Assembly (NCBI GenBank): GCA_964016885.1
Contig: OZ024748.1
Coordinates: 29,392,348 to 29,456,347 of the forward strand
Direction: 5' to 3'
Length of the DNA: 64,000 nt
From: Eledone cirrhosa
Lineage: Eukaryota; Mollusca; Cephalopoda; Octopoda; Eledonidae
Below are positions 2,395 through 64,000 of this stretch, in pieces; within the stretch, counting starts at the first letter, position 1; each line of letters starts with the position of its first letter. A model generated the notes under the pieces. The model searched no databases, was not told the origin of the DNA, and saw nothing but the letters and a program-made list of their open reading frames with translations. A program made the position numbers and the translations under genes.

Positions 2395-3084
2395 CAAGAA
2401 ACAAAAGATAATGTTAGTGATTTATCTTCAAATGAATCTGATGTGTACATTTCTGAAATTTTCCGACGATGATTTCTGTTTTGAAAGTGAAAACGAAGGA
2501 GATCTCTAGGACGCCATTGAAGATATTACAGCAACGTGGTCGATAAATACCACACCTACACATGTTCCCGATTTTATTGAAAATACCGGTCCACAACACA
2601 CATTACCTCCTGATGATAAAGCACTGAATTATTTCTTTTCGTTTTTGTCACAAACTTTCTTCGAAGTTGTGACAAAAGAGACAAACGGATATGCCCAACA
2701 ACAGATTTCAAATCGAAGAAAACCCAATCTGTTATAGCGACTGACAGATGCTGCGGAGATACAAGCGTTTTTTGCCATAAATATTATGTTTGGTATAAAA
2801 CAATTTCCAAGACTGTGGAATTACTGGAGCACTGATATAAGGTGACCCTTATATATCAAGTTTTATGGCAAAAACAAGGTATTCAAAATGAAACCAGTAT
2901 CTGCACCTGGTTGATACTTCAAATGACCCCCGGTAGAAATGATTTGAATTATGACCCTCTGTATAAAGTTCGACCATTAATTAAAATGCTATCTGAAAAA
3001 TTTAAAACAGTATATATACCTGAGAAAATCTTAGTGTTGAGGAAGCTATGATTGGGTATAATGGTAGAGTAAATTTTAGACAAT

Positions 3085-6216: not shown

Positions 6217-6310
6217 GAGGTGTCAGAAAAGTTCCAGGACTGATGTCACAAAAGATTTATTTCAAACCCAAACTTCACACTAAGAGTTTTCTCCTTCAAA
6301 GTAATCCCCC
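6217..6310 (+). repeat. Left terminal inverted repeat of mariner
   Basis: It pairs with 7430-7526 and overlaps the end of the transposase coding sequence. Confidence 0.9.
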
Positions 6311-7335
6311 TGGAGTCTAATACACTTTTCCATCCTTTTCTGCCACGCTTGCATGCACTCCTGGAAGGATTCTTCCGGGATCCTCCGCAGTTCCGTCATC
6401 ACAGCCTTTTTGATGTCGTCCACGTCTTCAAAACGGGTCCCCTTGATGACCCCCTTGAGCCTGGGGAATAGGAAAAAATCACACGGAGCCAGGTCGGGGG
6501 AGTAGGGAGGTTGCTCCAGCACGGCGATGTTCTTCTCGGCCAGGAACTGTCGGATGCTCAAGGCATTGTGAGTAGGCACGTTATCATGGTGAAGCAGCCA
6601 CGAGTTGTCCTGCCACAACTCTCGCCTCTTCTCACACACTGAACGAAGCAAACGCTGCAGTATCTCTTTGTAGACATGTTGGTTGATCGTCTGGCACTGT
6701 GGCAAGAACTCGCAGTGGACGATCCCCCTCACATCGAAGAATGTGATCAACATGACCTTGTCTTTGGACTTCGACTGTCGTGCTTTCTTCGGCCTTGGCG
6801 ACGACGGACTCTTCCACTGAAGGCTCTGGCGTATGGTTTCCGGGTCGTACTCAAAGATCCATGACTCATCACCGGTGATGACTGTCCCTAGCAAGTCTGG
6901 TTCGGTTTCAAGACGCTTGAGGATGTCCTGGCACACCTGCATGCGTCGACCCTTCTGTTCATCATTCAGCAGTTTTGGCACCATCTTCGCGCAGACTTTC
7001 CGCATGTCCAAATCTTCAGTGAGAATCTTCCAGACGCTGTCCCGATTCATGCCCAGCTCATTTGCCATCAGTCGAACAGTCAGCCGACGATCGCTACGTA
7101 CCATCTGCCTGATGCGCTCAACGTTGACATCAGTCCTGGTTGTTGAGGGCCTTCCGCTCCTAGGGTCATCTTCCACGTCCTCGCGTCCTTCTTTAAACCT
7201 CTTGCACCACTCAAAAACACGTGAGCGTGACATCGTCTCATCTCCATACACTTGCTGCAGCAATCCCAGTGTTTCTTTCGGAGTTTTCCCCAACCGTACC
7301 AAAAACTTCAAGTTTGTTCGTTGCTCTGTGCTCAT
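6280..7335 (-). CDS. mariner transposase, apparently intact (DD34D)
   Basis: The 351-residue protein starts MSTEQRTNLKF and catalyses cut-and-paste transposition into TA sites. Length fits the family (about 345 residues). The N-terminal half has two helix-turn-helix segments (SRVFEWCKRFKEG and LMANELGMNRDSVWKIL regions) that would bind the inverted repeats. The catalytic part carries GDESW, then HDN, then YSPDLAPCDFFLF; 34 residues lie between the Asp of HDN and the last Asp, the canonical DD34D. The WVPHEL linker is MVPKLL here. The start at 7335 was chosen by family length; the frame is open upstream to 7578 only because it reads through the right inverted repeat and a TA microsatellite. 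The stop codon (6280-6282) and the last nine or so codons lie inside the left inverted repeat. No inactivating change is seen, so it may still be functional. Confidence 0.93.
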   Translation of the reverse strand: MSTEQRTNLKFLVRLGKTPKETLGLLQQVYGDETMSRSRVFEWCKRFKEGREDVEDDPRSGRPSTTRTDVNVERIRQMVRSDRRLTVRLMANELGMNRDSVWKILTEDLDMRKVCAKMVPKLLNDEQKGRRMQVCQDILKRLETEPDLLGTVITGDESWIFEYDPETIRQSLQWKSPSSPRPKKARQSKSKDKVMLITFFDVRGIVHCEFLPQCQTINQHVYKEILQRLLRSVCEKRRELWQDNSWLLHHDNVPTHNALSIRQFLAEKNIAVLEQPPYSPDLAPCDFFLFPRLKGVIKGTRFEDVDDIKKAVMTELRRIPEESFQECMQAWQKRMEKCIRLQGDYFEGENS

Positions 7336-7429
7336 TGCTTGACGACCTGAAACAAAGGACATGTATATAAAATTATGAAGAAAAAAGTTTGATCGCTGCA
7401 GAGAGCTAAGATTACAGTTACATACTGCA

Positions 7430-7525
7430 GGGGGATTACTTTGAAGGAGAAAACTCTTAGTGTGAAGTTTGGGTTTGAAATAAATCTTTTGTGACATCAG
7501 TCCTGGAACTTTTCTGACACACCTC

Positions 7526-7526
<1 letters not shown>
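7430..7526 (-). repeat. Right terminal inverted repeat of mariner
   Basis: Reverse complement of 6217-6310 apart from a 2 bp gap and one terminal base. Confidence 0.9.
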
Positions 7527-7566
<40 letters not shown>

Positions 7567-7568
<2 letters not shown>

Positions 7569-8402
7569 TCATCATCATTTTACGTCCGTATAGTTTCTTT
7601 CATCTAGTGCATCTTCTTTACTCTTGTAGTGGTTGATAATGATGCTGCAGCGTCAATCATTTGGTATGACACCATTTAGTATGACTTGGTTTACAATATG
7701 TGGTTAAAGTGCGACCTATCGACCCTGATGCATTCAGCATCTCGGCAACTATTCCTGATGGACCAGCTGCTTTCCCGGTTTTCATATCCTTAATTGCCTT
7801 ATTACCCTGCTGCTGACTTGTACAGCTAGGCCCTCTATTGGATTCACTTGGGGTAGGGTCTCTTTCTCCCATGCATTCTCCTGATTCAGTAATCTTTTAT
7901 AATGGCTCTTCCATGTTACTTTCTTTTTGGCACCTGTGAGGCCAATTGCACCTTTACCATCACAGACACATTTCTTACCAATGATATCATAAATTTCCCT
8001 AACACACTGCCCAGTAATCCTGAACACTTCATGTTTCTAGTCTCCAAGCTGCAAAACTTGCTTGAATTTTTTATCTTCTGCTTCCCTCTTTGCCAAGTAT
8101 ATTTGTTGACTAGCTTCCCTCCTGGCCGCTCATATACAAGCTGCCTTTCATTTTTAGAGAAAAACCCTTTGTTGCCAACAGTGGTATTAGCTCTCTGAAC
8201 TTTTTCCATCCCGTTCTAACTTTAGCTACTGTACTTTCAGAACACCCTCCTCCACTGCTGATTTTGTCACTCAGATAACAGAATGTGTCTACTATTTCTA
8301 TAGAACCATCTGGGCAGTTGGAAGAGTTAGTATCCAGTGGGAACTCGCTACTTACTGCACTTATATAATTAAATGAAAAAACAATGTTGTCTCCTATCAA
8401 CA
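7567..8402 (-). mobile_element. Scrambled fragment of the ATG-tailed PHD-LINE
   Basis: From high to low coordinate the minus strand first encodes the late C-terminal part of the LINE protein (about 8345-8135: [38 protein letters not shown]). It then jumps at about 8127 to an earlier part (about 8110-7650: Arg/Ala-rich linker upstream of RT, GKAAGPSGIVAEML). That order is reversed relative to intact copies such as 61958-64000, so the fragment is rearranged. An ATC repeat at 7568-7576 and TTTTACGTCCG mark a remnant of the 3' end. Confidence 0.75.
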
Positions 8403-40100: not shown

Positions 40101-43100
40101 ATGTTTGTACTCACAATCAGCATTACAACGTTCTTTCCTGGCAAGACAGACTGCTGCATTTCCCAAATTGCACTTTTGGGATGTTTTTTCTACTTACGTG
40201 GCACCGATGCTGCACATGCTGTCCATATTGTGTTCAGGAGTAGTGTTGACATCTCCAGAGTCATAAAATTCAAGCCAGTTTGGACGTTGCAGCTCGGTGC
40301 AGTAACAGTTCCACTGCTTTATTCCCGTCAAATTGAGCAGTTTAGAGATGGTTGTGGTTTTTGTTACTGCCCATGAGGGATAGAATGGCAATGATCATAG
40401 CATGATCAGAGTCACCTAAAGGTTCCTCAGTAGTAACACTAATAACCGTTCCAGGAGGAGTGGTGAAGAGTAGATCCAAAGTGGTGTCACCTCTTGTGGG
40501 TGAGTATGTGTGAGTGTATATATATATAATCATCACCGTTTTACGTCCATTCTTCCACGCTAGCATGAGTTAGACTGGTTGTCCTGTCATAGGCAATGCC
40601 AGGTCGGGTGACCATGTTTTGCTCATACGGGAACCGATTTTGGCTTGATTTCTACAGCTGGATGCCCTTCCTAACACCAATCATCATCATCATCATTTTA
40701 CGTCCGCTTTTCCCTGCTTGCAAGGGTGGGACGGGTCTTATTTAGCACAGCATCTCTCCACTTGTTACGGTCCTTCGTCATCTCCACCGTGAGGTTCAGT
40801 GACCTGAGGTCTGTTCTCACCACCTCCGCCCATGTTTTTCGTGGTCTACCTCTACCATGTCTTCCTTCAACTGGTATTTCCTGGCACTTCTTCACCCATC
40901 GGTCATCCTCCATGCACATCAGATGTCCATACCACCTCAGTCTCCTCTCTCGCACACTACATTCTATCACTCTCAGACACAGTTTCTCTCTCAACACATT
41001 CATGCTGGGTCGTTCACGCACATTGACATTGCACATCCAACGGAGCATGCTTGTCTCATTTCTCTCCAGCCGTCACATATCCTCTGCAGTTGCTGTCCAT
41101 GTCTCACTACCGTGCATCATCGCGCTCCTCACACAGGCCTCATATAACCGGCCTTTCGTACACAGGGAGAAACCCTTCTTCGTCAGCAGAGGAAGCAGCA
41201 CCCTAAACTTCTTCCAACCCGGCCTTATTCTAGATACTATGGCCTCGGAACACCCCCCTCCAATGCTAATCTGATCTCCTAGGTACTGGAAGCTATCCAC
41301 CACTTCTATAGCACCTGCCTGCATTTGAAAAATGTGTCTATCAATGCGACTTCTACTGTCTAATTTCCCTGTACATCTACTGCATACGTATTTCTCCCTA
41401 CCTGTTAGTTTGCCTGCTATCCCACTACATCTCTTGGAGGGCTTGGAGGACTATAATGAACAAGAGCAGGCTGAGGACCGAACCTTGATGTACTCCTACT
41501 TGTATCTGGAATTCCTCACTAAACTCCATTCCTACCCTGACTTTACTGACAGTACCTCTGTACAAAGTTTGCACTGTCCTCACAAGCCATTCCTCAACAC
41601 TTAGTTTCCTTAGGGACCACCAGATGACAGATCGGGGTACCCTATCAAAGGCCTTCTCTAGGTCAACAAAGGCTAAGAATAGTGGCTTATTTTTCTCTAA
41701 GAACCTCTCTTGTAATTGTCTCACCAAGAAGAGGGCATCTGTTGTACTCTTCTCAGGCACAAAACCAAACTGCATCTCATCTAATTTGACTCTTTCCCTA
41801 ATTGCCACTTTCATATGATCCATCAGTTTTATACCCCTATAATTGCTCCTCTCCAGAGCATCCCCTTTACCTTTGTAGCAATTTATGAGAATACTGCTGC
41901 ACCAGTCTTTGGATATGACACCACCATAAATAGCCTGATTGATGATGCGTGCAACCAGTTTAGTGCCTAAGTCCCCTGATGCCTTCAGCATCTCAGCAAA
42001 TATCCCCTTACCATTTTTCACTTCCTCAATCGCCTCTTGGACCCTATATTCGTCAATCTCACTAGCTGGTCCTTCTGTCGGATCTACTGGGGGTAATTTC
42101 TCTCTCTCCCATTCGTTCTCCACATTCATCAGTCTCTCATAATGACATTTCCAGGCCTCCTTTTTCTGATCATTCGTGACACTAAATACACTGGCATCAT
42201 TCCGGACACATTTATCTCCAACAACATCCTGATTTGCATTGACACACTGCCTTGCAATGAGGAACACTGCACGCCTCTGATCTTCTCGTCACAGAACATT
42301 GGCAAACCTCCTACTCTTAGCCACCCTGCGTGCTAAGTACACCCGACGTCTAGCTTCTCTCTTAGCGGCTGTAAGTCACACTGGATCTGCCCATTTTGTG
42401 GGCTTCTTTGGCTTTATGTAGTCTCAAGTTGCAGATAATTAGATGGTGATCAGTTGACAACTCTGAACCCTCTCTTAACATGAGCATCCAGGCAAAGCTG
42501 TTCTGCTAGAGAATGGGTCGCAGGTGGTGGCTAGCAATACGGCTACCAGATATGATGGCTAGTTGCGACATAAGCAGGTAGGTGCTGGATAAATAAGCAA
42601 CCTTTGACCAACTGTGGTAAACTACTAAGGGAGAAAGTACCAAATTGGTGACTGGCGCGAATAAGTCCACCAAAACTGCAACATCCTTTGTGCAGGTTAA
42701 CAAACGTGATCAGGCCTTAGATAGAGGGGCCTGTTCAAAAAATATATTTCTGTCTCCATTTCATGCCGCAAAAACTGGCGATGGGCTTGCGACATGCCCT
42801 GAGAGGTATGGAATGGACGCACAAAGATTGTGTATCTCAGGACCCCAAAGAGGATCCAGAAGGGGGCAAACCTTGACAATTGGTACCTGGAACATCACAA
42901 CCCTCACAGGTGAGGAGCAGGAACTAGTGGAGGATGCTAAATGCTACCAGCTAAATACAGTTGGAGTTTCCTCAACAAAGTTCCATGGTTATGATACTGT
43001 AGATTTGGTTGGAAGCTGGAAACTCCACTATTCAGGTGTTGTGCCAGAAATGAATCCACAGGTGGGAGTGGGGATACTCACAAGCCCCCGGCTGTCAGAA

Positions 43101-46100: not shown

Positions 46101-49100
46101 ACTTGAGGCAAAGTTAGTCGGGTGACTGGGTCTCGCTCATATAGGACTATCTGGCAGGTATTCTACGGCTGGATGCCCTTCCTAACACCAACCACATGTA
46201 CAGTGTGGAACTGGGAACTTTTTACCGTGTTACCTACACGGTGACATTACAGCGTGGACTGTGTGTTTTTTTCTCGTGACACCTACACGATCTCGATCTC
46301 ATTATCTCATTTATTTGGACTGGATGTTGTGGTACCAACTTTACAGAGAGAGGGTGGTGTTGGTGGGAGTGGGAGGATAGGGTAAGGGTAGTGGATTGGG
46401 GTGTATATTTGGTTAAGAGGTGCCTACTGACTGTAGGTTTTGCTTTGTACATAGGCAAGGCGGGTCTTCTGTATTACTGTGTAGCGCCAAAGATCTCGGT
46501 CCAATGACATTGTCTTAGAGAGGTGCAAGTGTGTAAGGTCGGAATTTATCAGATCGTCCCAGGTTTTTATGGGTCTACCTACTCCGTAACTACCATCAAT
46601 TTTATACAGCTGTCGTCTTTCATGCGCATCATGTGGCCATACCAACATAGTCTTCTCTTGAGTAAACAGCATCTGATCTCTCTTATTCCTAATTTCTCAC
46701 TCATTTCAATTATTCTTTACTGTTCACGTATATTACTATTACACATCTAACGGAGCATGCATGGTTCGTTCCTTTCCAGTCTACGCAGGTCCTCTGCACG
46801 TAATGCCCATGTCTCACTGCCATGTAGCATTGCTGTTCGTATACAAGCATACTGTTGCTGAATTGTCGCTTTGAGAAATGTAATGCATTTTCACTTCATT
46901 TTCTCGTCTCTCCTACTTTCTTGGTCCATTTACCTATCAGTATTTATATTAAACTTCTCGTTTAACTCTCATAATTATGGTCGAATCTGTAGGACCTTTA
47001 GAAAAATAACCTGCTCGTTACCTTCCTTCTTTCCCCGCTCTGTCTCCCTCATACATTGTTGATACGCTTACATGTTCTCTCACCCACCTCTCTCTCCGTA
47101 AATATAAAATAAATCTGTTGTGAGTTATGAAAGCTAAAAGTAAACCCCTATACATAGCTTTTGTTGACTTGGAGAAAGCTTTTGACAGAGTCCCCCCGCT
47201 CCATTATCTGGTGGGCTCTTAGAAAACTAGGTGTTAATGAATGGCTTGTGAGAGCTATACAAGCCATGTATAAAGAAACAGTCAGCAAGGTTAGAATTAA
47301 CAACGAATATAGAGAAGAGTTTAGCGTAAAAGTTGGTGTTCATCAGGGCTCCGTCCTTAGCCCCCTACTATTTATTATTGCCCTTCAGGCTATAACAGAG
47401 GAGTTCAAGACCGGCTGCCCATGGGAACTCCTATATGCAGATGATCTAACGCTCATAGCTGAATCGATGGCTAAACTAGAGAAGAAATTCCAAACATGGA
47501 AGCATGGCCTAGAATCAAAAGGCCTTAAAGTTAACTTGTCAAAGATTAAAGTTCTAGTATGTAGAAAGGAAAATAGAGCACAGGTCCCCTCTGGGAAATG
47601 GCCATGTTCAGTGTGTAGTAAAGGAGTAGGCAGAAATTCCATTTTATGTCCCAAATGCAAAGTATGGGTACATAAAAGATGTAGTGGGATCACAGGTAAG
47701 CTATCTAAGAACGTAGATTTTATATGTGGCCAATGCTCAGGTGCAATAAGTAGCAAGTACCCACAGGATACTAGCTCCTTCTATTGCCCAGATGGTTCTA
47801 TAGAACTAGTGGACACCTTCCGTTACCTGGGTGACAAAATCAGCAGTGATGGAGGGTGCTCTGAAAGTACAGCAGCCAGAATCAGAACGGGATGGAAAAA
47901 GTTCAGAGAGCTTATACCACTAAAGGTTTCCCTCTAAAAATGAAAGGCAGATTGTATGATGCTTGTATACGAACAGCAATGTTACATAGCAGTGAGACAT
48001 GGGCATTGTATGCAGAAGATCTGCGCAGACTGGAGAGGAACGAAGCATCCATGCTCTGTTGGATGTGTAATACACGAACGGCAAAGCATAAATGAACTAA
48101 GTGAGAAATTAGGAATAAGAGGGATCAGATGCTGTTTACTCAAGAGAAGACTATGTTGGTATGGTCATGTGTTGCGCATGAAAGACAACAGTTGTATAAA
48201 AAAGTGCAGGGCGATCAAAATTGATGAAAATTACGGAGTAGGTAGACCCAGCAAAACCTGGGACGCTTTGATAAATTCCGACCTACACCTACATCTCTTT
48301 AAGACAATGTCACTGACCGAGTTCTTTGGCGCTACGCAGTAATACAGAAGACCCGAAACCTACAGTCAGTAGGCACCACTTAACCAAATATATACCCCAT
48401 CCCACTACCCCTACTCCCACCCTTTCTCTGTAGAGTTATGTTGGTACCACAACATCCAGTTCAAAATAAATGAGCTCGTGTAGGTGTCACAACAAAAAAC
48501 ACACAGTCCACGCTGTAACGTGGCCGTGTAGGTAACACGGTAAAAACCTCCCAGTCCACACTGTAAACGTGGTTGGTGTTAGGAAGGGCATCTAGCCGTA
48601 GAAAACCTGCCAAACAGTCCTATACGAGCAAGACATGGTCACCCGACCAATCTTGCCTCAAATAGGACAATTCCCGTCTAAACCCATGCTAGCATGGAAG
48701 ATAGACATTAAACGATGATGATGATGATATATATATATATATAAGTAGGAAAGACCTTTTTCTTTAAACATTTTATTTTAACTTACCCTTTCAACTGATA
48801 TCATACGACCATGGAGTTCAGTTTGATTCAAATGTTGAATACATTTAGAAGCTTCATGTGCACTAGACATAGTTACAAAACCATAACATCGGGCACCGGG
48901 ACTTCGAGCATTTGTCACTACTTTGGCACCAACAACCTGGTAGAGAAAAATAGAAATTTGCATTATATGAGCTAAGAGAAAAGCTGGGTACAAGAGGTAT
49001 CAAATGTGTGCAGGAGAGATGACTACACTGGTATGGATATGTAATGCGTATGGATGATGATTGTTGTGTGGAGAATGTTAATCTAAAGAAACTACATCTG

Positions 49101-52100
49101 ACAAAGGAGATGACAAAAAAAACAGGCAAGTGGGGAGATGTATTGGAGAAATTTCATCTAACCTATGCAAGTATAGAAAAACAGATGGAAAATGATGATG
49201 ATTAGTAAAAAATTACTTTGATTCAGTAAAACAGTCAACACCATCATCAACATGTTAATTCTGACAAATATGATAGAGAAGGTGACAAAGCACTGGATGA
49301 ACCTGGTTTGTTTACTTGGAAAAGAATAAATACTGCTAAAGATTACATAGAAAGATTACAAGATATATTGTGCCTACCATTAAAAGAAAAAAACAATAAA
49401 ATGAGAGAAACTGTCTATATACTCAATCAATCAATTATATAGAGAACAGGACAAGAATATCTTATTTGGGGTAAATAACAACACACAAACACACACAAGA
49501 TTGCTGTTGGTATTGTACAAATTAAAAATAACACACCAACATATTTCAGTCAATATACCTTGCCATATTTGGTAAAAAGCAATTTGAGGTCTGTAGCACG
49601 GGTTGTTGAAGCAAGACCACTGACCCACAAATTCCGGCTGTTTTCGTTGTTGCCTATTAAACACAGAAATATTTCAATAACCATGTTGCAAATATATCAA
49701 AATGTTAAAATAAGTATAGAAAAGAAGCAAAAATCAGAGAAAATGGGGAAAAAAAAACTTACTTTTGATATTTTTGACAACTTTTGGTTTAGAAACTGAA
49801 GAACTGTAACGACAAAACAATGGTTTAGAAATATCATCACCATCATCAACATCAAAAGTAAATGTCAAGGGAGAATTTTGAAACATAATTTCATTATTTA
49901 TATGAATTGTAACTGAACTTGCAAACCCACACAATACCACTTTATATTAGGGTTCTCAATCTAAATATACAGATACAGATATATATTGAAATAAACAAAA
50001 TACACACACACATACATGCATATACATATATACTCAAAGACATACTTATTATATAAGAATGATGTGACAATGTAACTTTAATATTTAGCAAAGCATAACA
50101 AATGTTATACATAGTTAAATATATTTCTATACCTAATATCAAATTAATATTACATGTGAGTGGGAAAATGTAACGACGAAAGAAGCTTACCTCTTATTAA
50201 AATATGCTTTTGTACTAGCAATTTATCTATTTTAGATATAAATGAATACAAAAGCACTAATTTGAAATGGAATTATTGGTTGAGACAATGAATGGATTAC
50301 CAATTAGTTAACAACTGACATTATACACCAGCAATAAAAAAACTAACAGTTATCAAAAATGTACAGAAATACATGAACTATAGTCTTCAGGAAATTAAAA
50401 AGAGGTCAGCATATAATGTGCAATTCCCTAAACACTAACTGCTAGTTTAGCAGAAATATGGCTGGAATACAGGAACCAATAACTCAGTTTTCAATCTTTT
50501 CAAACATCATCCAATTTCTATCTTGTCAGAGAAATTATTAATTATCTGACATCCACAAATTCATCAATGTTTTTTTAAATTTTATTCTTGAGAACTCAGG
50601 CTTCCTCCTCTTCATTATTGTCATCTTCATCCAAACAGTTAGTTTTGCTTCATGATATTGGTTATTAGTTCCAGTGGATAATACTTCAGTAATTTGGTAA
50701 ATCTCCTAATATGTGAGTTTGAGCATCTCATGTAATCACACTCCAACTAAGATTCCTTATCCCCAGCCAACTCCCAAACCATTTGCTGGCCCCTTTTCAT
50801 TTCATGAACTATAGTTCACATTAATCATCTAAAGTATAAATATTTACTTCTATAAACACACATCATTATCTACCAAACATCTTCAATGGTATCATCATAT
50901 GTTTTTACTCAACAAATACACAAGCTTTATCAATTTGTTAGAGACTGTAGCACATAAGCCAAGAGAAATCCTGGCCTCTCAACACTTCCATTGTAGTCTC
51001 AAATATGAGAAACTGATGAAAAGATATCTCAGATATGTTTTAGTCAATTATAGCCCAGGCCATGTCTTATTTAATAGTAATCCTACAAATAAACTATTGC
51101 AATATATTAATTATCTGACATCCACAAGACTAGAGAGATGTCTAGCATTAGTAGTAGTAGTTTGGTGTTAAATCTACAATCAAACCAGATACACACACTC
51201 ACATATCTTCTTTTTTAAATAACTCACAATTAACCATGAAAGGATGCTCTCTGAAGAAAACCTAATTAGATAGGTTAACTTATAGTTCCAGAGAAACTGT
51301 TCCTTTTGGCAGTTGTAGACCCCAGTTTTAGCCAAGGTGTCGACATCTGTTACCGAGAAGTAAGATCATTTAACTAATGACATCTTTGAATCAAAGCAGT
51401 GGGAAAGATGACTTGAAAACCAACCTCTTCGACTTTACATCTTTATCATCTTTCTTTTCATCAGTCTTCTTCTCAGTTTGCCCTCCTTCAATTTTACCTT
51501 TAGCCTTTTCCTCAACTGTGCTTCCATCTGTTTTCTTCACTTCACTTTTGCCACTCACTTTGTCCTTAGGTGTCTTCTCTATTTTACCATTATTTGTTTT
51601 GGATGCCACAAGGTCAGCATCTAAATCATTCTGAGTGTCATCAACATGAACTATAAGTGATTCATTTTCTTCACTCTGTTGAGTGGTGGAAGTGTCCATA
51701 CTGATTGTGTCTTTTAATGTAAATGGAGCTATACAAGGTACACTGGTGGGTGTTGGAGGTAAACTATCCGAGAGAACTCTATTGGTCACATCGTCTCCTT
51801 TAGGTTCATTACAGTTTTGTTGCGGAGTTGTTGTTTTCCTACTGGCTGATGAGGGGTTTTCATCATTTTCTTTTTTTATATTATTCTCTGCTGATGAAGT
51901 CTTTTCACTCTTTTCTTCTGGTGTATTCATTTCTGATGATGAGGATAATCCACTGTTTTCTTCTTTTCTGTTAGTTTCCACTGATGAAGATGACAGTACT
52001 GGCGGTGCTATAGAAAGTTAATTTAGAATGAAATAGTTGATACGAAATGAAAACTTGTTAAACCTCACTCCACAACAGACTGTGTTCTGCAGAGAGTTTA

Positions 52101-56400: not shown

Positions 56401-59400
56401 CCTACCTGTGGTATCCTTTAATGTATCATCAGCTTCTTCCTAAAATAGAGAAGAAGATATCTGATAACAACAACAACTGATGATATACAATACATAGCCA
56501 TAGTAGAAATAAATTATTTGGATTGGTATCAAAAGGATTAATTTATTAATTTGTGGCTACTAATTTTAACAGCTTATCATAGTTACACTAATTTTACAAA
56601 TATAATATTTTAACAATTGTGAATCAAAAACACTTGGAAATGTATTTACTTCTATAATACAAACTAATTTATTTTAAAGTGTTTGTATTTATTTAATAAC
56701 ATTCCATAATAATTTTATGTAAGAAAATTAATTATGTTCTGAACACCAGCTTAATAATAAGAAAGTCAGTCCTCTTACTAAATATCTCCAAATTCTTCAT
56801 TATTTTCAAAGTGATTTTAAAAGTCATAGGCAGCGACTTTCATTAAAAATTTGGTAATAAAAGGGTTAAGGTATAAACATGCAAAACAAAAGTAGATTTA
56901 CCTTCAAAACAATATTAATTTCTTTGTTTGTATCAGGTAGCTCTTCCACAAGCAGGACTTTATCAAAGGTGTCATTTACCAACATATCTGATGGTTTTGT
57001 ATCACTTGAAAGTATCTGATTGTCAGTAATATCAGGATTGGTGGTGTTTAGAAAGACATCAGCCAATGCCACATCAGATGTCTCTGTTTCTTTCTGAAAA
57101 TTTAAACAAAATATAATTTCAACTTTTAACTCTTAATACCAATCACCTCAAGCCACAACTGGTTCTATGATACTATGTTGTGATACGAGTACAGCCTAAT
57201 ATACCACTGAAAATATTGCTGTTGTCTATACTGGCTCTATCAAGACAAATAACACATGATGCTGTTAGCCATGCACAAATAAAATCACCAAATGTTCCAA
57301 TATATATTTAAAAGAGGACAGTACCAACTGGAGTATGAAATCCTTGACTGCAGCCCCCTTAGGCAATATATAAATCCAGTACTGGGAGCAGCTAAATACC
57401 CTTTTATATACTGACTGGGGAATGATTTGAACTGTGTAATCTAACAGCTAAACTGTACCAGAATGTATTTCCTGATCTACAATCAATATATTTCCTATGA
57501 TCTACAATCAATATTTCCTATGATTTACAATCAAATATGATATTCTTCATAATATAAAAAAAAAACGAATGTAAAACACCAGTACCAAAAGTTGACAACA
57601 ATTAGTGACAACTGGAAGATATGTAAAGGAAGTTAGTGAAAATATATTCATAAAGTTCACCAACCTTAACCTTGACCATGTTGACTGTAGTAAGTTCATT
57701 TTCTAGAAATTAAAATAATACAATATTAGTTCAAGACACACACCACCATATAACATAATATTGAGTGACATACATCTAGACACAGTTTAACCCTTTAGCA
57801 TTTAAACCGGCCAGAATTCTCTCACCTCTTTCTGTTTAAACTGGCCATAACCAGCTCCTCATATTTATGTTAAGGTTTTGTTCTTAAAATAAATAATATC
57901 AAAATCTCATAGATTCAATATTATGTAATAACTATGTAAAGTGAAGCCTTTACCATGAAAATATAATAGTAAATATAGAGTAATGTAAATGCTAAAGGGT
58001 TAGAATACAATTACACACACTATGTAACATAATAGTGTTGCACATATCTAAACAGTCTAAAATACAATTACATACACACCACCATATAACTTAATATTAT
58101 GTTACAAACATCTAAACACAGTTTAAAATACAAATACACACCACTACATAACTTAACATTGTACTGTGCACCCAGAATAAAAAAATATTATTTTTCCTAT
58201 CATTGTTTATTGCAAATTTTCTGTTGAATAAGACCTCTATGGGGAAGAAGCAAAAACCCACAGCTAAAAAGATTGTGTCTATAGAATTTTATGATAATTT
58301 AAAGTTAGTAATTTTGCAGTTCTTTTGCACTAAAAATTAGTTAACAAAAGTCCAAAAAATATCTTGAAAAATCATCTAAAGTTTTATGCTGACCTGAATG
58401 TTCCTTGTTGGAGCATGCAACAGATCTGTTGCATGCTCCAACAAGGAACATTCAGGTCAGCATAAAACTTTAGATGATTTTTCAAAATATTTTCCATGAA
58501 AATAACATACTTTTGTGTTAAGCTGGACTTTTGTTTGATGGTACCCAATACAATGAACTCAAATAGGCTGAAATATTTAATATAGATATTTAGAGACATT
58601 TCATTATCCCAGAGTTCAAATCAGGGTAGGCAGGTGTTTTTGGCACTTATCAAGAAAATGTTGTGCTGGCCTAAAAAAAAACAGTACATGTCTAAAACCC
58701 TAAAATTAGAGAGGCCATTTCATCTAACCATATGATAGGGAGTTGATTTTGAGCAATAATTGACATTTAGAAATAATACAGAGGCTTTGCAGTAACCAAT
58801 GCATAAGTAGGAGAACTTAGAAAAGAATATACATTTTGAAACTGAATGCATATATCAGTACAAACTTTTAAACTAATACAAAGATAACATTTTCTAGTGT
58901 TCCACAAGTTCAATACTATGTAAAATACATGGAGGCAATTTTGTTTTCCTCTTGCATTGAAACTGAAACATTATGTTTGAGTGACCAAACTGTGTATCAA
59001 TTTCTCCTCAAATTGAGCAACTAGGGTGAGGTCTTTTTGATGAAATTTCCAGATGAGACATCATAAGCATCAATTTGAAGATGCCATAAATGTTTTTTCT
59101 GAAAGCAGGCGAAATCTTGCAACTGCCCCACTCTGGAATGACCTAATGTGTTTGTTCCAACTTTCAAGTGGATTTTCACTCCATTTTGCAATTGACTGTC
59201 CACCATTCTATTCAAAAGGTTCCCAGCTGTGAGCACACATTTGAACAATGAAATTATAACCACCCATGAGAAGTCTCCCTTATCAAGAAATAAGTTTTTA
59301 GGTGTAACATTAAATCTATCCCAAGTGCCTTCAGTCTGTCAGACTTTCTTTTCTCATTCACTGATTGTGTGACATGGAGCATAACGTTGGTCAGAGACAA

Positions 59401-60826
59401 GAATATTTCATAATTGCCCTTGTCTTCCTGGTTCAACATGAGAGAACATACATTTTGGCAGTTTTTCGAACTGAAAAATCAGTCAGCCAAAGGTCTGATA
59501 TTAGTGTTCCCACCTATTCCACTGCATAAATCCATTGCATTCCAGTGGTTGACCTGATATGGTCAATTGACAGTTGCTTGGCATGCTGAATAAACCACAA
59601 TAGATTTTAAGCTTCACGCCATGTTTTTTGACCAGCAACCAAGTGATACAAAATCTTCTGAGCAAAATCTAATAATCTCAGTTTGAAGTGAAGGATTGAG
59701 AAACAATGCAAATCTGCTTTTATGTTTTCATGGCACTGACCATGTCTTTCACTGCTAGAATATATCTTGCCAGAAAAAAATTTCTCCCATGCTTCCTTGA
59801 AGGAATTATAATCCTTTGTTATCTGGAATCCCTTGGGTAAAAATGAAATATCATTTGCATCAGCTCATGTGGGTGGCATAAATGACAGAATGCACCACTA
59901 TGAAGAAGAGATACCACCTTGCCATCAATCATTGAACACTGTTTTGCAAGTGATATTCACATTTATGTCATTCACTGTGACATATAAACCAAAACCTGAT
60001 AACATCCAAAGAAAGCTCAAGTTCTACACAGACAGCACATCTTGATCCTCTACTGCTTGTACCAAGGAAACTGGACAAATAAATAGAGTTGTTTGAAACA
60101 GGGTTTATTCAAATACATTATTAGTGAGCTGTAATTCAATAACACAAAATAAAAGGTCTTTTTTGCTGGGGCCAGAGTGCCATAAAGAGGCACTCTTTCT
60201 CTAAGTATGCCAAATCCATCCCTATAAAGTAATTTGATAAAAATTTACAAATCTAACACATTTATTTTTCCGCCAATCACAAATCACACCAATCAAACAA
60301 TTTTTGCAGTAAATGTCAGAAAAAGAAATCAAATTATATCTTCAAAATTAGATGCTTTCATTGAATAGTTTTAACTCCACCAGTTGCAGCTTGCTAAAAT
60401 TATTCCGACGAGCTATAAACTACTTTTCTGAATCAATATTTTTTGTGAAGATATGAATTTATTCCTAAATTTGACATTCTGGTTGCAATGAACATTTTGT
60501 TACACACATCTAAATACAGTGTATCATACCGTTACACACACCACTAAATGACATAATATTGTGTACACACATCTAAATACAGTCTAAAATACAATTACCC
60601 ACACCACTACATAACATAATACTGTGTTACACACATCTAAAACAGACTAAAGTAGTTTCACAGCTGAGTATGATATAAAATAATTACGCACATTTACACA
60701 CAATCTAAAACAAGTCTCCACAGACAGAAAGTCAATATCAATCTTTTTAATCAGATAATTGTAATACTTACTGAGATCATCTTCCAGATGCTGACTTTCT
60801 TCCAGAAATTTCGCTTCACTAAGAGC
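33837..60826 (-). CDS. SAFB: SAFB/SLTM-like gene B (18 exons seen, 3' complete, 5' beyond window)
   Basis: Joined exons give 957 codons and a stop in an unbroken frame. In order: acidic N-terminal part (exons from 60826 to 51425) rich in Glu/Lys/Ser; an RRM (about residues 320-396; RNP2 LWVSGL, RNP1 RCYGFVTM, and [12 protein letters not shown] typical of SAFB/SLTM); Lys/Ser-rich linker ending [13 protein letters not shown], a block highly typical of the family; a Glu/Arg-rich coiled coil (about 556-678); Arg-rich region; and a Gly/Asn/Met-rich tail ending YTGTSL. In other animals these nuclear proteins bind scaffold DNA and RNA and affect transcription and splicing. Adding the roughly 75 N-terminal residues seen in gene A gives about 1030, close to vertebrate SLTM. 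The SAP exon is missing from the visible part. Introns are full of LINEs. The 4.2 kb to the gene A start suggests tandem paralogs. Confidence 0.9.
34184..34715. other. Gene B intron, purine-rich
   Basis: GA-rich plus strand with repeated AGATATAGxGAGAGA-like blocks at about 34280-34500. No coding signal. Confidence 0.5.
34716..34858 (-). CDS. SAFB: Gene B exon
   Basis: 143 bp, [19 protein letters not shown] ... RVRSSL. Donor GTAAGT, acceptor TTACAG, phases match neighbours. Confidence 0.85.
35057..35263 (-). CDS. SAFB: Gene B exon, Arg/Glu-rich
   Basis: 207 bp, [20 protein letters not shown] ... RSRTDEKLG. Donor GTAAAT. Confidence 0.85.
35515..35845 (+). mobile_element. ATG-tailed LINE 3'-UTR fragment
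   Basis: TGGTAGTGTTGGTGTCACAA ... TTGGCTTTAGGAATGGCATC ... AAATAGACATTGAACAGTGA then ATGATGAA. Intronic in gene B. Confidence 0.65.
35887..36175 (-). mobile_element. ATG-tailed LINE 3'-UTR fragment, inverted to previous
   Basis: ATCATCATTTTAACATCTTC ... TTTCTACAGCTAAATGCCCT ... ACTTTACAGCATGTACTGAA. Confidence 0.6.
36206..36590. repeat. Tandem repeat, 32 bp unit
   Basis: About eleven units of AATAATAAATCAATGACAGC plus CATAACAACAAT; the spacing is 32 bp where measured (36223, 36255, 36287). The later units change to CAGACATAAC and lengthen. Confidence 0.9.
36655..36798 (-). CDS. SAFB: Gene B exon
   Basis: 144 bp, [15 protein letters not shown] ... ELPFQNES. Donor GTAAGT. Preceded downstream by a tandem array in the intron (36206-36590). 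Confidence 0.83.
37039..37146 (-). CDS. SAFB: Gene B coiled-coil exon, second of a duplicated pair
   Basis: 108 bp, [20 protein letters not shown] then [16 protein letters not shown]. Very similar to 37617-37712, with the same phases. Donor GTCACT is weaker than that of its twin (GTGAGT). Confidence 0.78.
37617..37712 (-). CDS. SAFB: Gene B coiled-coil exon, first of a duplicated pair
   Basis: 96 bp, [20 protein letters not shown] then [12 protein letters not shown]. Same phase at both ends (carry of two bases), so either exon can be included or skipped without a frameshift. Confidence 0.85.
37912..38075 (-). CDS. SAFB: Gene B exon, start of Glu/Arg-rich coiled coil
   Basis: 164 bp, [20 protein letters not shown] ... 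[10 protein letters not shown]. Matches the family's RE-rich helix. Confidence 0.87.
38405..38805. repeat. Degenerate tandem repeat, about 40 bp unit
   Basis: About ten units built on GTGGAGTTAGTGATACTAAC plus TACTxTAGTTTCAGG in a gene B intron. No coding frame. Confidence 0.75.
38919..39157 (-). CDS. SAFB: Gene B exon with DILSFDRIK block
   Basis: 239 bp, [20 protein letters not shown] ... [16 protein letters not shown]. Ends phase 0, donor GTAAGT. Confidence 0.88.
39321..39467 (-). CDS. SAFB: Gene B exon, Lys/Arg/Ser-rich
   Basis: 147 bp, [19 protein letters not shown] ... [11 protein letters not shown]. The acceptor lies only about 25 bp from a LINE fragment in the upstream intron. Confidence 0.83.
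39490..40075 (+). mobile_element. PHD-LINE fragment (finger and C-terminal part)
   Basis: [31 protein letters not shown], then [17 protein letters not shown] and [20 protein letters not shown] (39721-39978). The finger Cys are partly kept. It abuts the acceptor side of exon 39321-39467. Confidence 0.78.
40076..40380. other. Intronic sequence, not recognised
   Basis: A short plus-strand frame runs 40053-40376 without recognisable domains. Confidence 0.35.
40381..40503 (-). mobile_element. LINE endonuclease C-terminal fragment
   Basis: [15 protein letters not shown] followed by LGDSDHAMI is the end of an APE endonuclease (TLDLxxT ... SDH motif). It seems to be a different family from the PHD-LINE. 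Confidence 0.6.
40525..40680 (-). mobile_element. ATG-tailed LINE 3'-UTR fragment
   Basis: ATCATCACCGTTTTACGTCC ... TTTCTACAGCTGGATGCCCT, directly abutting the next copy. Confidence 0.7.
40681..42390 (-). mobile_element. PHD-LINE, RT to 3' end, YADD deleted
   Basis: Minus strand. The 3' end is at 40681 (ATC repeat, TTTTACGTCCGC). RT segment at 42267-41425, 280 residues: [58 protein letters not shown]. The frame then jumps, losing the YADD block and most of the finger, to 41324-40698 ([44 protein letters not shown]). An in-frame stop lies near 41073. Defective by deletion. Confidence 0.85.
42395..42488 (-). mobile_element. LINE endonuclease-end fragment
   Basis: The reverse complement matches the 14640-14740 part of the APE LINE ([24 protein letters not shown]). 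Confidence 0.6.
42496..43500 (+). mobile_element. APE-type LINE, 5' UTR and endonuclease only
   Basis: Same family as 13917-16693. 5' UTR 42496-42763 (GCTGTTCTGCTAGAGAATGG), then GCCGCAAAAACTGGCGATGG and an endonuclease frame ([39 protein letters not shown]). It ends near 43500 inside the endonuclease. It contributes a longer 5' UTR than the copy in gene A, which starts at GCCGCAAAAAC. Confidence 0.78.
43754..43844 (-). CDS. SAFB: Gene B exon after the RRM
   Basis: 91 bp, [20 protein letters not shown] then [15 protein letters not shown] directly follows the RRM as in vertebrate SAFB. Confidence 0.85.
43845..44685. other. Gene B intron, unrecognised
   Basis: AT-rich with one minus-strand open frame (44572-44258) of 104 residues that I cannot relate to a family. 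Confidence 0.35.
44690..44805 (+). mobile_element. APE LINE 5'-UTR fragment
   Basis: GATATAAGCAGGTAGCTGGA, GATGAATAAGCAACCCCAA and AAACTCTCACAACCCACTGG match 5' UTR segments near 42560 and 61000. Confidence 0.55.
44905..46030 (-). mobile_element. PHD-LINE, partial, YADD changed to YADN
   Basis: The 3' end is at 44905. 45874-45428 encodes late RT and finger ([61 protein letters not shown]); 45406-45062 encodes the C-terminal region. The second catalytic Asp of YADD is Asn, which would abolish polymerase activity. Confidence 0.83.
46033..46855 (-). mobile_element. PHD-LINE 3' portion
   Basis: ATC repeat and TTCGTTTAACGTCC at 46033-46060, 3' UTR, then the C-terminal region (46672-46424, [17 protein letters not shown]). 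Inverted relative to the copy at 47125-48730. Confidence 0.8.
46856..47124. other. Spacer between inverted LINE copies
   Basis: T/C-rich sequence without recognised content. Confidence 0.35.
47125..48730 (+). mobile_element. PHD-LINE, RT palm to 3' tail
   Basis: Frame 47161-47937 (258 residues) covers RT from [12 protein letters not shown] through [20 protein letters not shown] and [14 protein letters not shown] (catalytic YADD kept). It then carries a C4HC3 PHD-like finger at about 47602-47738 (CSVC, LCPKC, WVHKRC, ICGQC) and [16 protein letters not shown]. After a frameshift near 47925 the C-terminal region continues ([15 protein letters not shown]). The 3' UTR ends in GATGATGATGATGATA. 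5'-truncated, as is usual for LINEs. Confidence 0.87.
48787..48936 (-). CDS. SAFB: Gene B exon: second half of RRM (RNP1)
   Basis: 150 bp, 50 codons, [20 protein letters not shown], then [18 protein letters not shown], ending MISVER. Carries RNP1. Very conserved family signature. Confidence 0.93.
48967..49203 (+). mobile_element. PHD-LINE fragment next to RRM exon
   Basis: GAGCTAAGAGAAAAGCTGGG, then a TGGTATGGATATGTAATGCG stretch, ending in GATGATGATTAG. About 30 bp upstream of the acceptor of exon 48787-48936. Confidence 0.7.
49559..49653 (-). CDS. SAFB: Gene B exon: first half of RRM (RNP2)
   Basis: 95 bp, [20 protein letters not shown] then [11 protein letters not shown]. Carries RNP2 (LWVSGL). 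Ends phase 0, donor GTATAT. Confidence 0.92.
49763..49803 (-). CDS. SAFB: Gene B small exon before the RRM
   Basis: 41 bp, [13 protein letters not shown]. Acceptor TTACAG, donor GTAAGT, phase bridges 51425-52007 and 49559-49653. Confidence 0.75.
49804..51424. other. Gene B intron without recognised elements
   Basis: AT-rich. Short open frames are random-looking. A CA/TA tract lies near 50000-50030. Confidence 0.45.
51425..52007 (-). CDS. SAFB: Gene B large acidic exon
   Basis: 583 bp, from [17 protein letters not shown] through [17 protein letters not shown] to [11 protein letters not shown]. Acceptor TCTATAG, donor GTTGGT. Its counterpart in gene A was not found in the window. Confidence 0.85.
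52008..53580. other. Gene B intron with TA microsatellites
   Basis: TA arrays lie at about 52888-52925 and 53330-53405. A perfect 25 bp inverted repeat is at 53114-53138 and 53193-53217. No gene. Confidence 0.55.
53114..53217. repeat. Perfect 25 bp inverted repeat with 54 bp spacer
   Basis: TCCTTGAAGAATATTGAGCT plus AACAA pairs with its exact reverse complement at 53193-53217. Confidence 0.85.
53581..53760 (-). mobile_element. ATG-tailed LINE 3'-end fragment
   Basis: ATCATCATCACTGTTTAACA ... TTACAGCTGGATGCCCTTCC ... CACATTTACAGTGTG. It leads straight into the minisatellite. Confidence 0.7.
53761..54890. repeat. Minisatellite, about 100 bp degenerate unit
   Basis: About ten or more units built on CACTATGAGGAGGGACAGGC, CAGTTGGCxGCGCCAAACCC and CCACATTTTGGGAGCCTG. 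Relatively GC-rich, so frames stay open by chance on both strands; no protein is claimed. Confidence 0.8.
54980..55950 (+). mobile_element. LINE reverse transcriptase fragment (separate family)
   Basis: [15 protein letters not shown] (about 55070-55120), the catalytic box [11 protein letters not shown] (YADD at 55184-55195), KTKVM, then 55288-55575 with [18 protein letters not shown] and [19 protein letters not shown]. The C-terminal region continues in shifted frames to about 55950 (KRERP ... TWKG). Stops and frameshifts make it defective. It lacks the PHD-like finger. Confidence 0.8.
55951..56405. other. Gene B intron
   Basis: AT-rich, nothing recognised. Confidence 0.4.
56406..56439 (-). 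CDS. SAFB: Gene B exon (paralog of gene A exon 7)
   Basis: 34 bp, [11 protein letters not shown]. Same length, phase and donor context as 12974-13007. Confidence 0.8.
56440..56901. other. Gene B intron homologous to gene A intron 6
   Basis: About 56530-56820 aligns to 13745-13916 plus 16694-16805 and contains the empty LINE target at 56698-56710. Confidence 0.8.
56902..57093 (-). CDS. SAFB: Gene B exon (paralog of gene A exon 6)
   Basis: 192 bp, 64 codons, [18 protein letters not shown] ... EINIVLK. 12 bp shorter than 16836-17039. Confidence 0.85.
57094..57664. other. Gene B intron
   Basis: No gene or clear repeat. The last 50 bp resemble 20095-20146 of gene A. Confidence 0.45.
57665..57702 (-). 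CDS. SAFB: Gene B exon (paralog of gene A exon 5)
   Basis: 38 bp, [12 protein letters not shown], donor GTTGGT. 6 bp longer than 20147-20178. Confidence 0.75.
57735..58165. repeat. Tandem repeat of about 60 bp in gene B intron, left part
   Basis: Units such as CACACCACCATATAACATAA plus TATTGTGTTACACACATCTA then AACACAGTCTAAAATACAAT. It is interrupted by the MITE and continues at 60495-60660 on the other side of the RAG1-like insert. Gene A has a single unit (about 20212-20250). Confidence 0.75.
57791..57999. mobile_element. piggyBac-type MITE
   Basis: It starts CCCTTTAGCATTTAAACC after TTAA (57787-57790) and ends ATGCTAAAGGG before TTAG, a one-base decay of TTAA. About 209 bp, non-coding. 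Ends match the piggyBac copies in this window. Confidence 0.8.
58364..58485. repeat. Perfect 122 bp palindrome (61 bp arms, no spacer)
   Basis: Arms 58364-58424 and 58425-58485 are exact reverse complements around CAGATCTG. After one mismatch 7 more bases pair (58356-58493). Confidence 0.95.
58980..60230 (-). pseudogene. RAG1-like transposase core, broken by stops and frameshifts
   Basis: Minus-strand pieces in several frames line up in order with the RAG1 catalytic core. DGFG (Asp at 60218-60220) fits the first catalytic Asp in DGMG. VFE and CPVSL...EDQDVL follow. [20 protein letters not shown] carries an Asp (59924-59926) at the second catalytic position and the zinc Cxx[24 protein letters not shown] and LVAGQKTW follow, then [17 protein letters not shown]. 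The end is [28 protein letters not shown], where the Glu (59163-59165) fits the final catalytic residue in RAG1 NESGNK. At least four stops and several frame changes show it is dead. RAG1 and its transposon relatives cut DNA at inverted-repeat or RSS ends. The alignment is from memory of family motifs; a Transib relative is the main alternative. Confidence 0.68.
60495..60665. repeat. Tandem repeat of about 60 bp, right part
   Basis: Three units (TTACACACATCTAAATACAG plus TxTAxxATACxxTTACxCAC). Continuation of 57735-58165. Confidence 0.75.
60772..60826 (-). CDS. SAFB: Gene B exon (paralog of gene A exon 4), most 5' exon seen
   Basis: 55 bp, [18 protein letters not shown], donor GTAAGT, acceptor TTTTAG. 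Exons equivalent to gene A 1-3 are not seen between here and 64000. Confidence 0.8.
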
Positions 60827-61957: not shown

Positions 61958-64000
61958 ATCATCATCATCATTGTTTGTCGTGACACCTACACAATCTCAT
62001 TTGTTTCGGCCTGGATGTTGTGGGACCAACATAACTTTACATTGAAAGGGGCGGTGTGGATGGGGTGGGGGTGGTGGGACGGGGGTGTATTTTGATAGAG
62101 ATGCCTACTGACTGTAGTAGGTTTTACTTTGTATTTAGGTAAGGCGGGTCTTCTCTATTACTGAGTACCGCCAAAGGTCTCGGTCCAGTGACATTGTCTT
62201 GGAGAGGTGTAAGCGTGTGAAGTCGGAATTTATCATGTCGTCCCAGGTTTTTCTGGTCTGCCTACTCCGTGGCTACCGTCTATCTTTATTGCCCTGCACT
62301 TTGTTATACAGCTGTCGTCTTTCATGCGCATCACGTGACCGTACCAACGTAGCCTTCTCTCGAGTAAACAACATCTGATCCCTCTTATTTCTAATTTTTT
62401 CCTTAGTTCGTTTATGCTTAGCCGTTCACGTATATTACTATTGCACATCCAGCGGAGCATGCAAGCTTCGTTCCTCTCTAGTCTGCGTATATCCTCTGCA
62501 CACAATGCCCAGGTCTCACTGCCATTCAGCATTGCTGTTCGTATGCAGGCATCGTATAACCTGCCTTTCATTTTTAGGGAGAACCCTTTAGCAGCTAATA
62601 GTGGTATAAGCTCTCTGAACTTTTTCCATCCAGTTCTGACTCTAGCTACTGTACTTTCAGAGCACCCTCCCCCACTGCTGATTTTGTCACCCAGGTAACG
62701 GAAGCTGTCCACTATTTCTATAGTACCCTCTGCGCAATTGAAAGAGCTAGTATTTTGTGGGCACTTGCTGCTACTTATTGCACCAGAGCACCGGCCACAT
62801 GTAAAATCTATGTTCTTAGTTAGCTTACCTGTGATCCCACTACATCTTTTATGCACCCATACTTTGCATTTGGGACATAAAATGGAGTTTCTACCTACGC
62901 CTTTCCTACACACTGAGCATGGCCATTTCCCGGAAGGGACCGCCGCCTTATTTTCTTTCTTACAAACTAGAACTTTAGTCTTAGCCAGGTTAATTTTAAG
63001 GCCTTTTGATTCTAGGCCGTACTTTCATGTTTGGAATTTCTTCTCTAGTTCGGTCATTGATTCAGCTATGAGCGTTAGATCATCTACGTATAGGAGTTCC
63101 CATGGGCAGCCGGTTTTGAACTCCTCTGTTATAGCCTGAAGGGCAATAATAAATAGTAGGGGGCTAAGAACAGAGCCCTGATGGACACCAACTTTTACGC
63201 TAAACTCTTCACTATATTCGTTGTTAATTCTAACCTTGGTGACTGTTTCTTTATACATGGCTTGTATAGCTCTCACAAGCCATTCGTCAACACCTAGTTT
63301 TCTAAGAGCCCACCAGATAATGGAACGGGGACTCTGTCGGCTTTCTCCAAGTCAACAAAAGCTAAGTATAGGGGTTTACTTTTAGCTAGGTACTTCTCCT
63401 GTAGTTGTCGTACAATGAAAAGAGCGTCTGTGGTACTTTTGCCTGACACAAACCCGAACTGCATTTCATCTAGATCAATTCTCTCTCTGATTAGTTGCGC
63501 TATTACTTTTTCTGTGACCTTCATGACCTGGTCGATTAATTTAATGCCTCTATAGTTACACTTATCTAGGGCATCTCCTTTACCCTTGTAACAGTTAATG
63601 ATGATGCTGCTATGCCAGTCCTTCGGAACAACCCCATTCTGTATGACTTGGTTTACTATCCGGGTGACCATGGTGTGTCCCACCGTTCCAGAGGCTTTCA
63701 GCATCTCAGCAACTATTTCCGAAGGCCCAGCTGCCTTACACGTTTTTGGTCCTCATGTTGTAGAACATGCTTGAACTTTCTTTCCTCTGCTTCCCTTCTT
63801 GCGAAGTACACTTGTCTCCTAGCTTCCCTCCTGGCCACTTGATAGTCTTCTCTACTTCCCCCATCCCGCCATACCTTCCAAGCCTGCTTTTTGGCCTTAA
63901 TTGACTCCTCCACCTTACTGTTCCACCACCATGTTACTCTCCTCCTACCTACAGGCCTGCTCCAGCCACAGACTTCGTCTGCCGCCGTCAGCAGGTTTGC
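61958..64000 (-). mobile_element. PHD-LINE, best-preserved copy, continues past right edge
   Basis: Minus strand. From the right edge: linker upstream of RT (63913-63713, KAWKVWRDGGSREDYQVARR), RT fingers (63704-63294: [65 protein letters not shown]), RT palm (63276-63025: [34 protein letters not shown]), then 62913-62233 (226 residues) with the second half of the C4HC3 finger, [26 protein letters not shown] and GVGRP. The 3' UTR ends in an ATC repeat at 61960-61971. Only a few frame breaks separate the parts (near 63710, 63320, 62990). The polymerase box is YVDD. Confidence 0.88.

Follow-up and report, generated by a model that had tools for sequence, protein, structure and literature searches.

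A probable fossil of an internally deleted, RAG1-related transposon of the Transib superfamily

RAG1 is believed to have arisen from Transib transposons, the ends of which generally start with CAC. Here we analyzed a 64,000-nucleotide stretch of contig OZ024748.1 (hereafter the window), in which positions 58162–60492 of the minus strand very probably hold a decayed, internally deleted transposon of the Transib superfamily that is related to RAG1 and was likely moved in trans, before it decayed, by the transposase of fuller copies. Transibs have been described across animals (PMC9435367). A survey of 39 genomes, including 27 bivalves and two cephalopods, yielded one stop-free Transib open reading frame (ORF) of more than 300 residues (PMC10294476); because that count required stop-free ORFs of this length, the copies matched here would be missed by it. 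Transposons that pair a RAG1-like (RAG1L) with a RAG2-like (RAG2L) gene, referred to as RAGL transposons, are known from bivalves (oysters, mussels) and a nemertean, or ribbon worm (PMC7204232), and a damaged TransibSU core had been published from oyster before them (PMC4411706). In the portions searched of the main texts of open-licence papers, no cephalopod Transib family is named. A first-pass annotation of the window had proposed that a RAG1-like copy in a protostome intron bears on how far such transposons spread. Their known reach is unchanged by this locus, since RAGL transposons in molluscs were already known; what the element adds to molluscs is a many-copy Transib lineage.

Among the closest described systems are the Transibs that Tao et al. 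(2022; PMC9435367) call “Subgroup I”, which are marked by a stretch within the zinc-binding domain and a CTT1 tail, have asymmetric terminal repeats, and are seen as intermediates towards RAG1L; a GRP motif is reported in both Transib subgroups. The lineage described here resembles them in an apparent α11–α12-like zinc-domain stretch, a CTT1-type knuckle, an N-terminal GRP, and a 5-bp target duplication, and differs in that asymmetric repeats are at most suggested and the window copy is a deletion derivative; the likeness is to published features of Subgroup I. HzTransib (PDB 6pqn, 6pqx) shares the DDE fold and the order of catalytic and zinc-binding residues, but structure-aligned identity is approximately 22%, and neither the long zinc-domain stretch nor the C-terminal knuckle occurs in its relatives. 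Vertebrate RAG1 shares the core fold and, in mouse, a zinc-domain spacing of 64 residues, whereas structure-aligned identity is approximately 16% and RAG1 has no transposon ends and works with RAG2.

The element, its ends, and its decayed coding region

The borders of the element (Table 1) were set by comparing the window with 20 fetched paralogous regions. On both sides, the family ends in a 15-bp inverted repeat with the family form CACAGTGCACCCAGA, which begins with CACAGTG, the same letters as the heptamer of the recombination signal sequence. Joined to each other, the flanks of the window copy rebuild one unit of a minisatellite that is present on either side, and the insertion went into this minisatellite. 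A script placed both ends in 14 of 21 copies, the window included. Target duplications matched at four or five of five positions in four of these 14 copies, namely CAGAG/CAGAG in L031, CAATG/CAATG in L046 (both 5/5), TGCTA/TGCTG in L042, and AAATG/CAATG in the window (both 4/5), at two or three positions in five copies, and at none or one in another five. Among the seven copies with at least 11/15 matches at both ends, the duplication was 5/5 in two, 4/5 in two, and 2–3/5 in three.

Table 1. Features of the probable element, in window positions
Feature	Position	Strand	Basis or detail
Whole decayed element, probable Transib, 2331 bp	58162..60492	-	blastn borders common to paralogues, terminal repeats, target duplication
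5' terminal inverted repeat, decayed	60478..60492	-	11/15 match to CACAGTGCACCCAGA
3' terminal inverted repeat	58162..58176	-	13/15 match to CACAGTGCACCCAGA
Target site duplication (5 bp), left copy	60493..60497	-	AAATG, 4/5 match to right copy
Target site duplication (5 bp), right copy	58157..58161	-	CAATG
5' leader common to the family	60197..60490	-	contains “DGFG” (60218–60220)
Internal-deletion junction, approximate	60170..60190	-	MAFFT of 14 copies; about 600 bp with N-terminal part and first catalytic Asp missing
Decayed transposase coding region	58922..60179	-	frameshift-aware alignment; residues 273–711 of P0029
Second catalytic Asp codon, GAT, in IDGK	59924..59926	-	column of P0028 D367
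CxxC of zinc-binding domain, FCHLC	59876..59887	-	P0028 C382/C385
Long segment from CxxC to conserved His	59691..59875	-	RAG1-like length
Catalytic Glu codon, GAA, in LESWNK	59163..59165	-	column of P0028 E631
C-terminal zinc knuckle remnant	58978..59019	-	second Cys position now a stop (59008–59010)
Palindrome inside the element, 138 bp	58356..58493	.	two 69-nucleotide arms, 99% complementary, no gap

The first-pass annotation had read a broken minus-strand ORF at 58980–60230 as matching the RAG1 core in linear order. The order holds for the RAG1/Transib superfamily, and the feature is real, although the element with its termini and target duplication is wider. In a frameshift-aware alignment with P0029, an intact transposase of 711 residues from public data, 413 residues could be aligned, of which 247 (60%) are identical; the alignment passes through 11 frameshifts and five stops and reaches the last codon. 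Five full-length relatives matched the window in tblastn with E-values of 1e-35 to 4e-69. Judged from these alignments, a chance match to transposases is excluded. Full-length relatives are approximately 711 to 715 residues long, are predicted to carry the RAG1-core fold, and have the DDE triad D253, D367, and E631 in 38 of 38 cases; the D367 and E631 columns have aligned counterparts in HzTransib, mouse RAG1, and amphioxus RAG1L. The annotated FCHLC was confirmed as the CxxC.

Not all three catalytic acids have counterparts in the window copy, as had been claimed; the second Asp and the Glu do. The codon taken for the first Asp (D1), the GAT of “DGFG”, is a chance match in the 5' leader. This leader aligns at 85.8% identity with positions 2751–3042 of the fuller copy L031, upstream of the coding match there, and the homologous bases in L031, at approximately 3019, likewise lie in the leader. 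The true D1 motif, KIGVDGPGS, is found in L031 at 3595, within the roughly 600 bp that the window copy lacks. Twelve of the 20 fetched paralogues align straight across the deletion junction with the window copy, and the D1 segment is kept in one (L031); the other seven gave no one-piece alignment across the junction, and L042 and L046, which are among these, also lack the segment. A later insertion of the 600 bp into L031 is disfavored because full-length relatives contain the equivalent protein stretch. The loss of D1 is damage of the window copy and not of the family, and the window copy is a deletion derivative. The palindrome (Table 1), which was not seen in the paralogous copies aligned, is apparently a local inverted duplication.

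The fossil, with its parts joined, gave at least 84 matches in the genome, which group by position into at least 33 loci, the window included. The leader gave 41 matches, counting the window's own, and transposase residues 1–274 gave three, at two loci. In the genome, where the first-pass annotation had proposed a search for intact copies, the stop-free stretches among the matches listed reach at most approximately 101 residues. Hits of more than 800 bp between fetched regions, some of which may be other repeats, have a mean identity of 77% (range 71–92, n = 320), and the burst of copies hence looks old. The joined fossil alone matched nothing in Pfam or PDB, and the family was exposed through its relatives. 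The Pfam RAG1 profile (PF12940) gave no match over the genome, which says little because this profile, while matching the HzTransib-like protein P0121 (2.2e-6), misses P0028 at E ≤ 0.1.

Placement among Transib and RAG1-like transposases

When the family profile was scored against known proteins, HzTransib came first (9e-35, 123 bits), followed by amphioxus RAG1L (1e-9, 40 bits) and RAG1 (4e-4 or weaker). By sequence, the element belongs to the Transib superfamily rather than to the RAG1L/RAG2L transposons. The earlier label of a RAG1-like element holds for the superfamily but not for the branch; it has some support in RAG1L-type features that the lineage retains and that are absent from HzTransib-like Transibs.

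These features were compared between two sets. One comprised 38 relatives of 520 residues or more, grouped around the window copy, and the other 96 HzTransib-like proteins of 640 residues or more; the latter were taken from the best 120 of 1278 found and hence stand for the proteins nearest to HzTransib, not for all of Subgroup II. The spacing from the CxxC to the conserved His (C385–H450 in P0028) is 64 residues in 36 of 38 relatives and 30 in 92 of 96 HzTransib-like proteins; it is 64 in mouse RAG1, 60 in amphioxus RAG1L, and 20 in the HzTransib fragment, which lacks about ten residues and therefore reads short. Based on this spacing and on predicted helices, the zinc domain of the relatives probably contains an equivalent of α11–α12. 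A C-terminal knuckle (CxxC-x2-6-H in the last 90 residues) is present in 36/38 relatives and 0/96 HzTransib-like proteins, and the exact RAG1L motif Cx2Cx3GHx4C in 18/38 relatives. GRP occurs within the first 170 residues of 31/38 and 3/96, respectively, and PF26100 is annotated on some members of both clades. Taken with the published marks, these counts suggest that the lineage belongs to Subgroup I.

An unrooted tree (622 columns, LG+F+G4) was built from the 38 relatives, 22 of the 96 HzTransib-like proteins, two RAG fragments, and the window. The window falls within the clade of its relatives (89); the HzTransib-like set (100) and, likewise, the RAG pair (100) stand separately. Path lengths from the RAG pair are 6.4 to 6.6 to the HzTransib-like set and 6.8 to 7.0 to the window clade, and because the RAG pair is thus slightly nearer to the former, we do not claim the window clade as the nearest kin of RAG1. 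In a scan of genome contigs with one peptide pattern for bacterial relatives that could root the tree, 35 stretches matched and none was a relative. One weak, stop-free match to P0121 (G000:C4:25925282–25925506, 2.4e-5) is perhaps a second Transib lineage.

The two ends of the element share a block led by TGGGAA at positions 26 and 17 (GGGAA at 27 and 18). A shared 12-mer offset by 9 bp was reached in 19 of 1000 shuffles, a 10-mer in 231, and a 14-mer in 145; these values are no more than suggestive of asymmetric terminal repeats in this family. In algal RAGL ends, 13 bp are followed by 4 or 13 bp and then by 10 bp (PMC9435367), so that a second block would start at 18 and 27. It is possible, if doubtful, that a scarcely annotated mollusc Transib lineage keeps the state of the RAGL ancestor before RAG2: RAG1-like zinc-domain helices, a RAG1L knuckle tail, CACAGTG ends, and a bipartite repeat with its second element near 18/27, as in algal RAGL (13-bp element, 4/13-bp spacers). 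Such a repeat would be a 12/23-like asymmetry that predates RAG2, and in this likely cephalopod the lineage would have been swamped by its own D1-less derivatives. The knuckle of the tail and the stretch in the zinc domain function, in RAG proteins, in the binding of DNA ends and of RAG2 (PMC9435367). Should the lineage prove widespread in molluscs, its intact members would make it possible to examine whether both parts worked before RAG2 joined; the window copy itself, a dead deletion derivative, is of modest interest.

Alternative readings and proposed history

The element could be the remnant of a RAGL transposon proper, in which a RAG1L gene once lay beside a RAG2L gene. Protostome and amphioxus RAGL transposons (PMC7204232, PDB 6b40) share with this lineage the DDE core, 5-bp duplications, heptamer-like ends, and the Cx2Cx3GHx4C tail, but they have a RAG2L gene and the RAG1 N-terminal region and are more distant in score than HzTransib. 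Martin et al. set Transib apart from RAG1L by low identity and the lack of that N-terminal region. For P0028, Pfam gave no match to a RAG1-type N-terminal zinc-finger or RING region at E ≤ 0.1, but Pfam misses its core as well. No RAG2L gene was seen with the element: in L031, itself decayed, the 990 bp that follow the coding region contain no stop-free stretch of more than 77 codons. Searches of the genome with the RAG2 profile (PF03089) and with amphioxus RAG1L gave no matches, both being run without a positive control. The family form CACAGTGCACCCAGA also differs from the protostome RAGL terminal-repeat consensus, CACTWMCAAACKTYKBB, and we regard a RAGL origin as unlikely.

That the element is an ordinary HzTransib-like (Subgroup II) fossil with nothing special about it would fit HzTransib being the best solved match, the CACAGTG ends, the 5-bp duplication, and the fact that no second gene was seen. 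This reading is very unlikely given the differences in zinc-domain spacing, knuckle, and GRP, the separation in the tree from the 22 HzTransib-like proteins included (a set that is not all of Subgroup II), and the single weak genome match obtained with P0121. Domestication of such a transposase as a host gene, followed by its breakdown, would agree with the apparent intron location on the gene's own strand, but the transposon ends, the target duplication, the insertion into a minisatellite, and some 32 sister loci make this extremely improbable.

The preferred reading of a deleted Transib-superfamily transposon implies the following history. The intact element would have encoded a single DDE transposase cutting at the CACAGTG heptamer-like ends. 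The living element may have excised itself through RAG-like nicking and hairpin formation, and may have inserted at cuts staggered by 5 bp. Once the D1 segment was lost, a copy would have made no active enzyme but kept both ends, and could hence be moved by transposase made elsewhere. This derivative would then have multiplied; that it became the common form is consistent with a non-autonomous derivative that outgrew its source.

Host gene and other features of the window and genome

The element likely sits, as annotated earlier, in an intron; the gene would lie on the minus strand. On this strand, the element is preceded by a segment that has splice-like borders (60826–60772) and followed by exons encoding RNA recognition motifs (RRM) at 49630 and near 48882 (RRM_1, 2.1e-14). 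Likely exons of the RRM gene are spread over 52017–33800 on the minus strand, and the gene resembles SAFB. An exon-like piece, KETETSDVALADVFLNTTNPDITDNQILSSDTKPSDML..., occurs twice on the minus strand, at 57093–56866 and 17090–16809, approximately 40 kb apart, and may reflect an exon duplication or a repeat; because it recurs near 17090 and may be repeat DNA, the piece at 57093 was not used as proof of the intron.

That the host is a mollusc is shown by 39 genome matches to PF14830, a haemocyanin domain of molluscs; that it is a cephalopod is likely. The haemocyanin genes are repeated: by position, three lie on G000:C1 near 173.75–173.91 Mb and two, in opposite orientation, on C26 near 21.93–22.02 Mb, with two more matches on C27 near 0.06 Mb. 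Against squid and octopus haemocyanins, one such unit scored 652 bits (best unit of 6r83), 655 (4yd9_C), and 647 (1js8); it scored lower against 3j32 and 8trz (502 and 459, best unit of each) and against 8tnv (456), all among the chain units covered.

Elsewhere in the window, fragments at 62233–63752, 41425–42288, 47158–47937, and other places resemble, by eye, one RTE-like non-long-terminal-repeat reverse transcriptase, and an open frame of 439 codons on the minus strand (6280–7599) resembles, again by eye, a mariner-type transposase.
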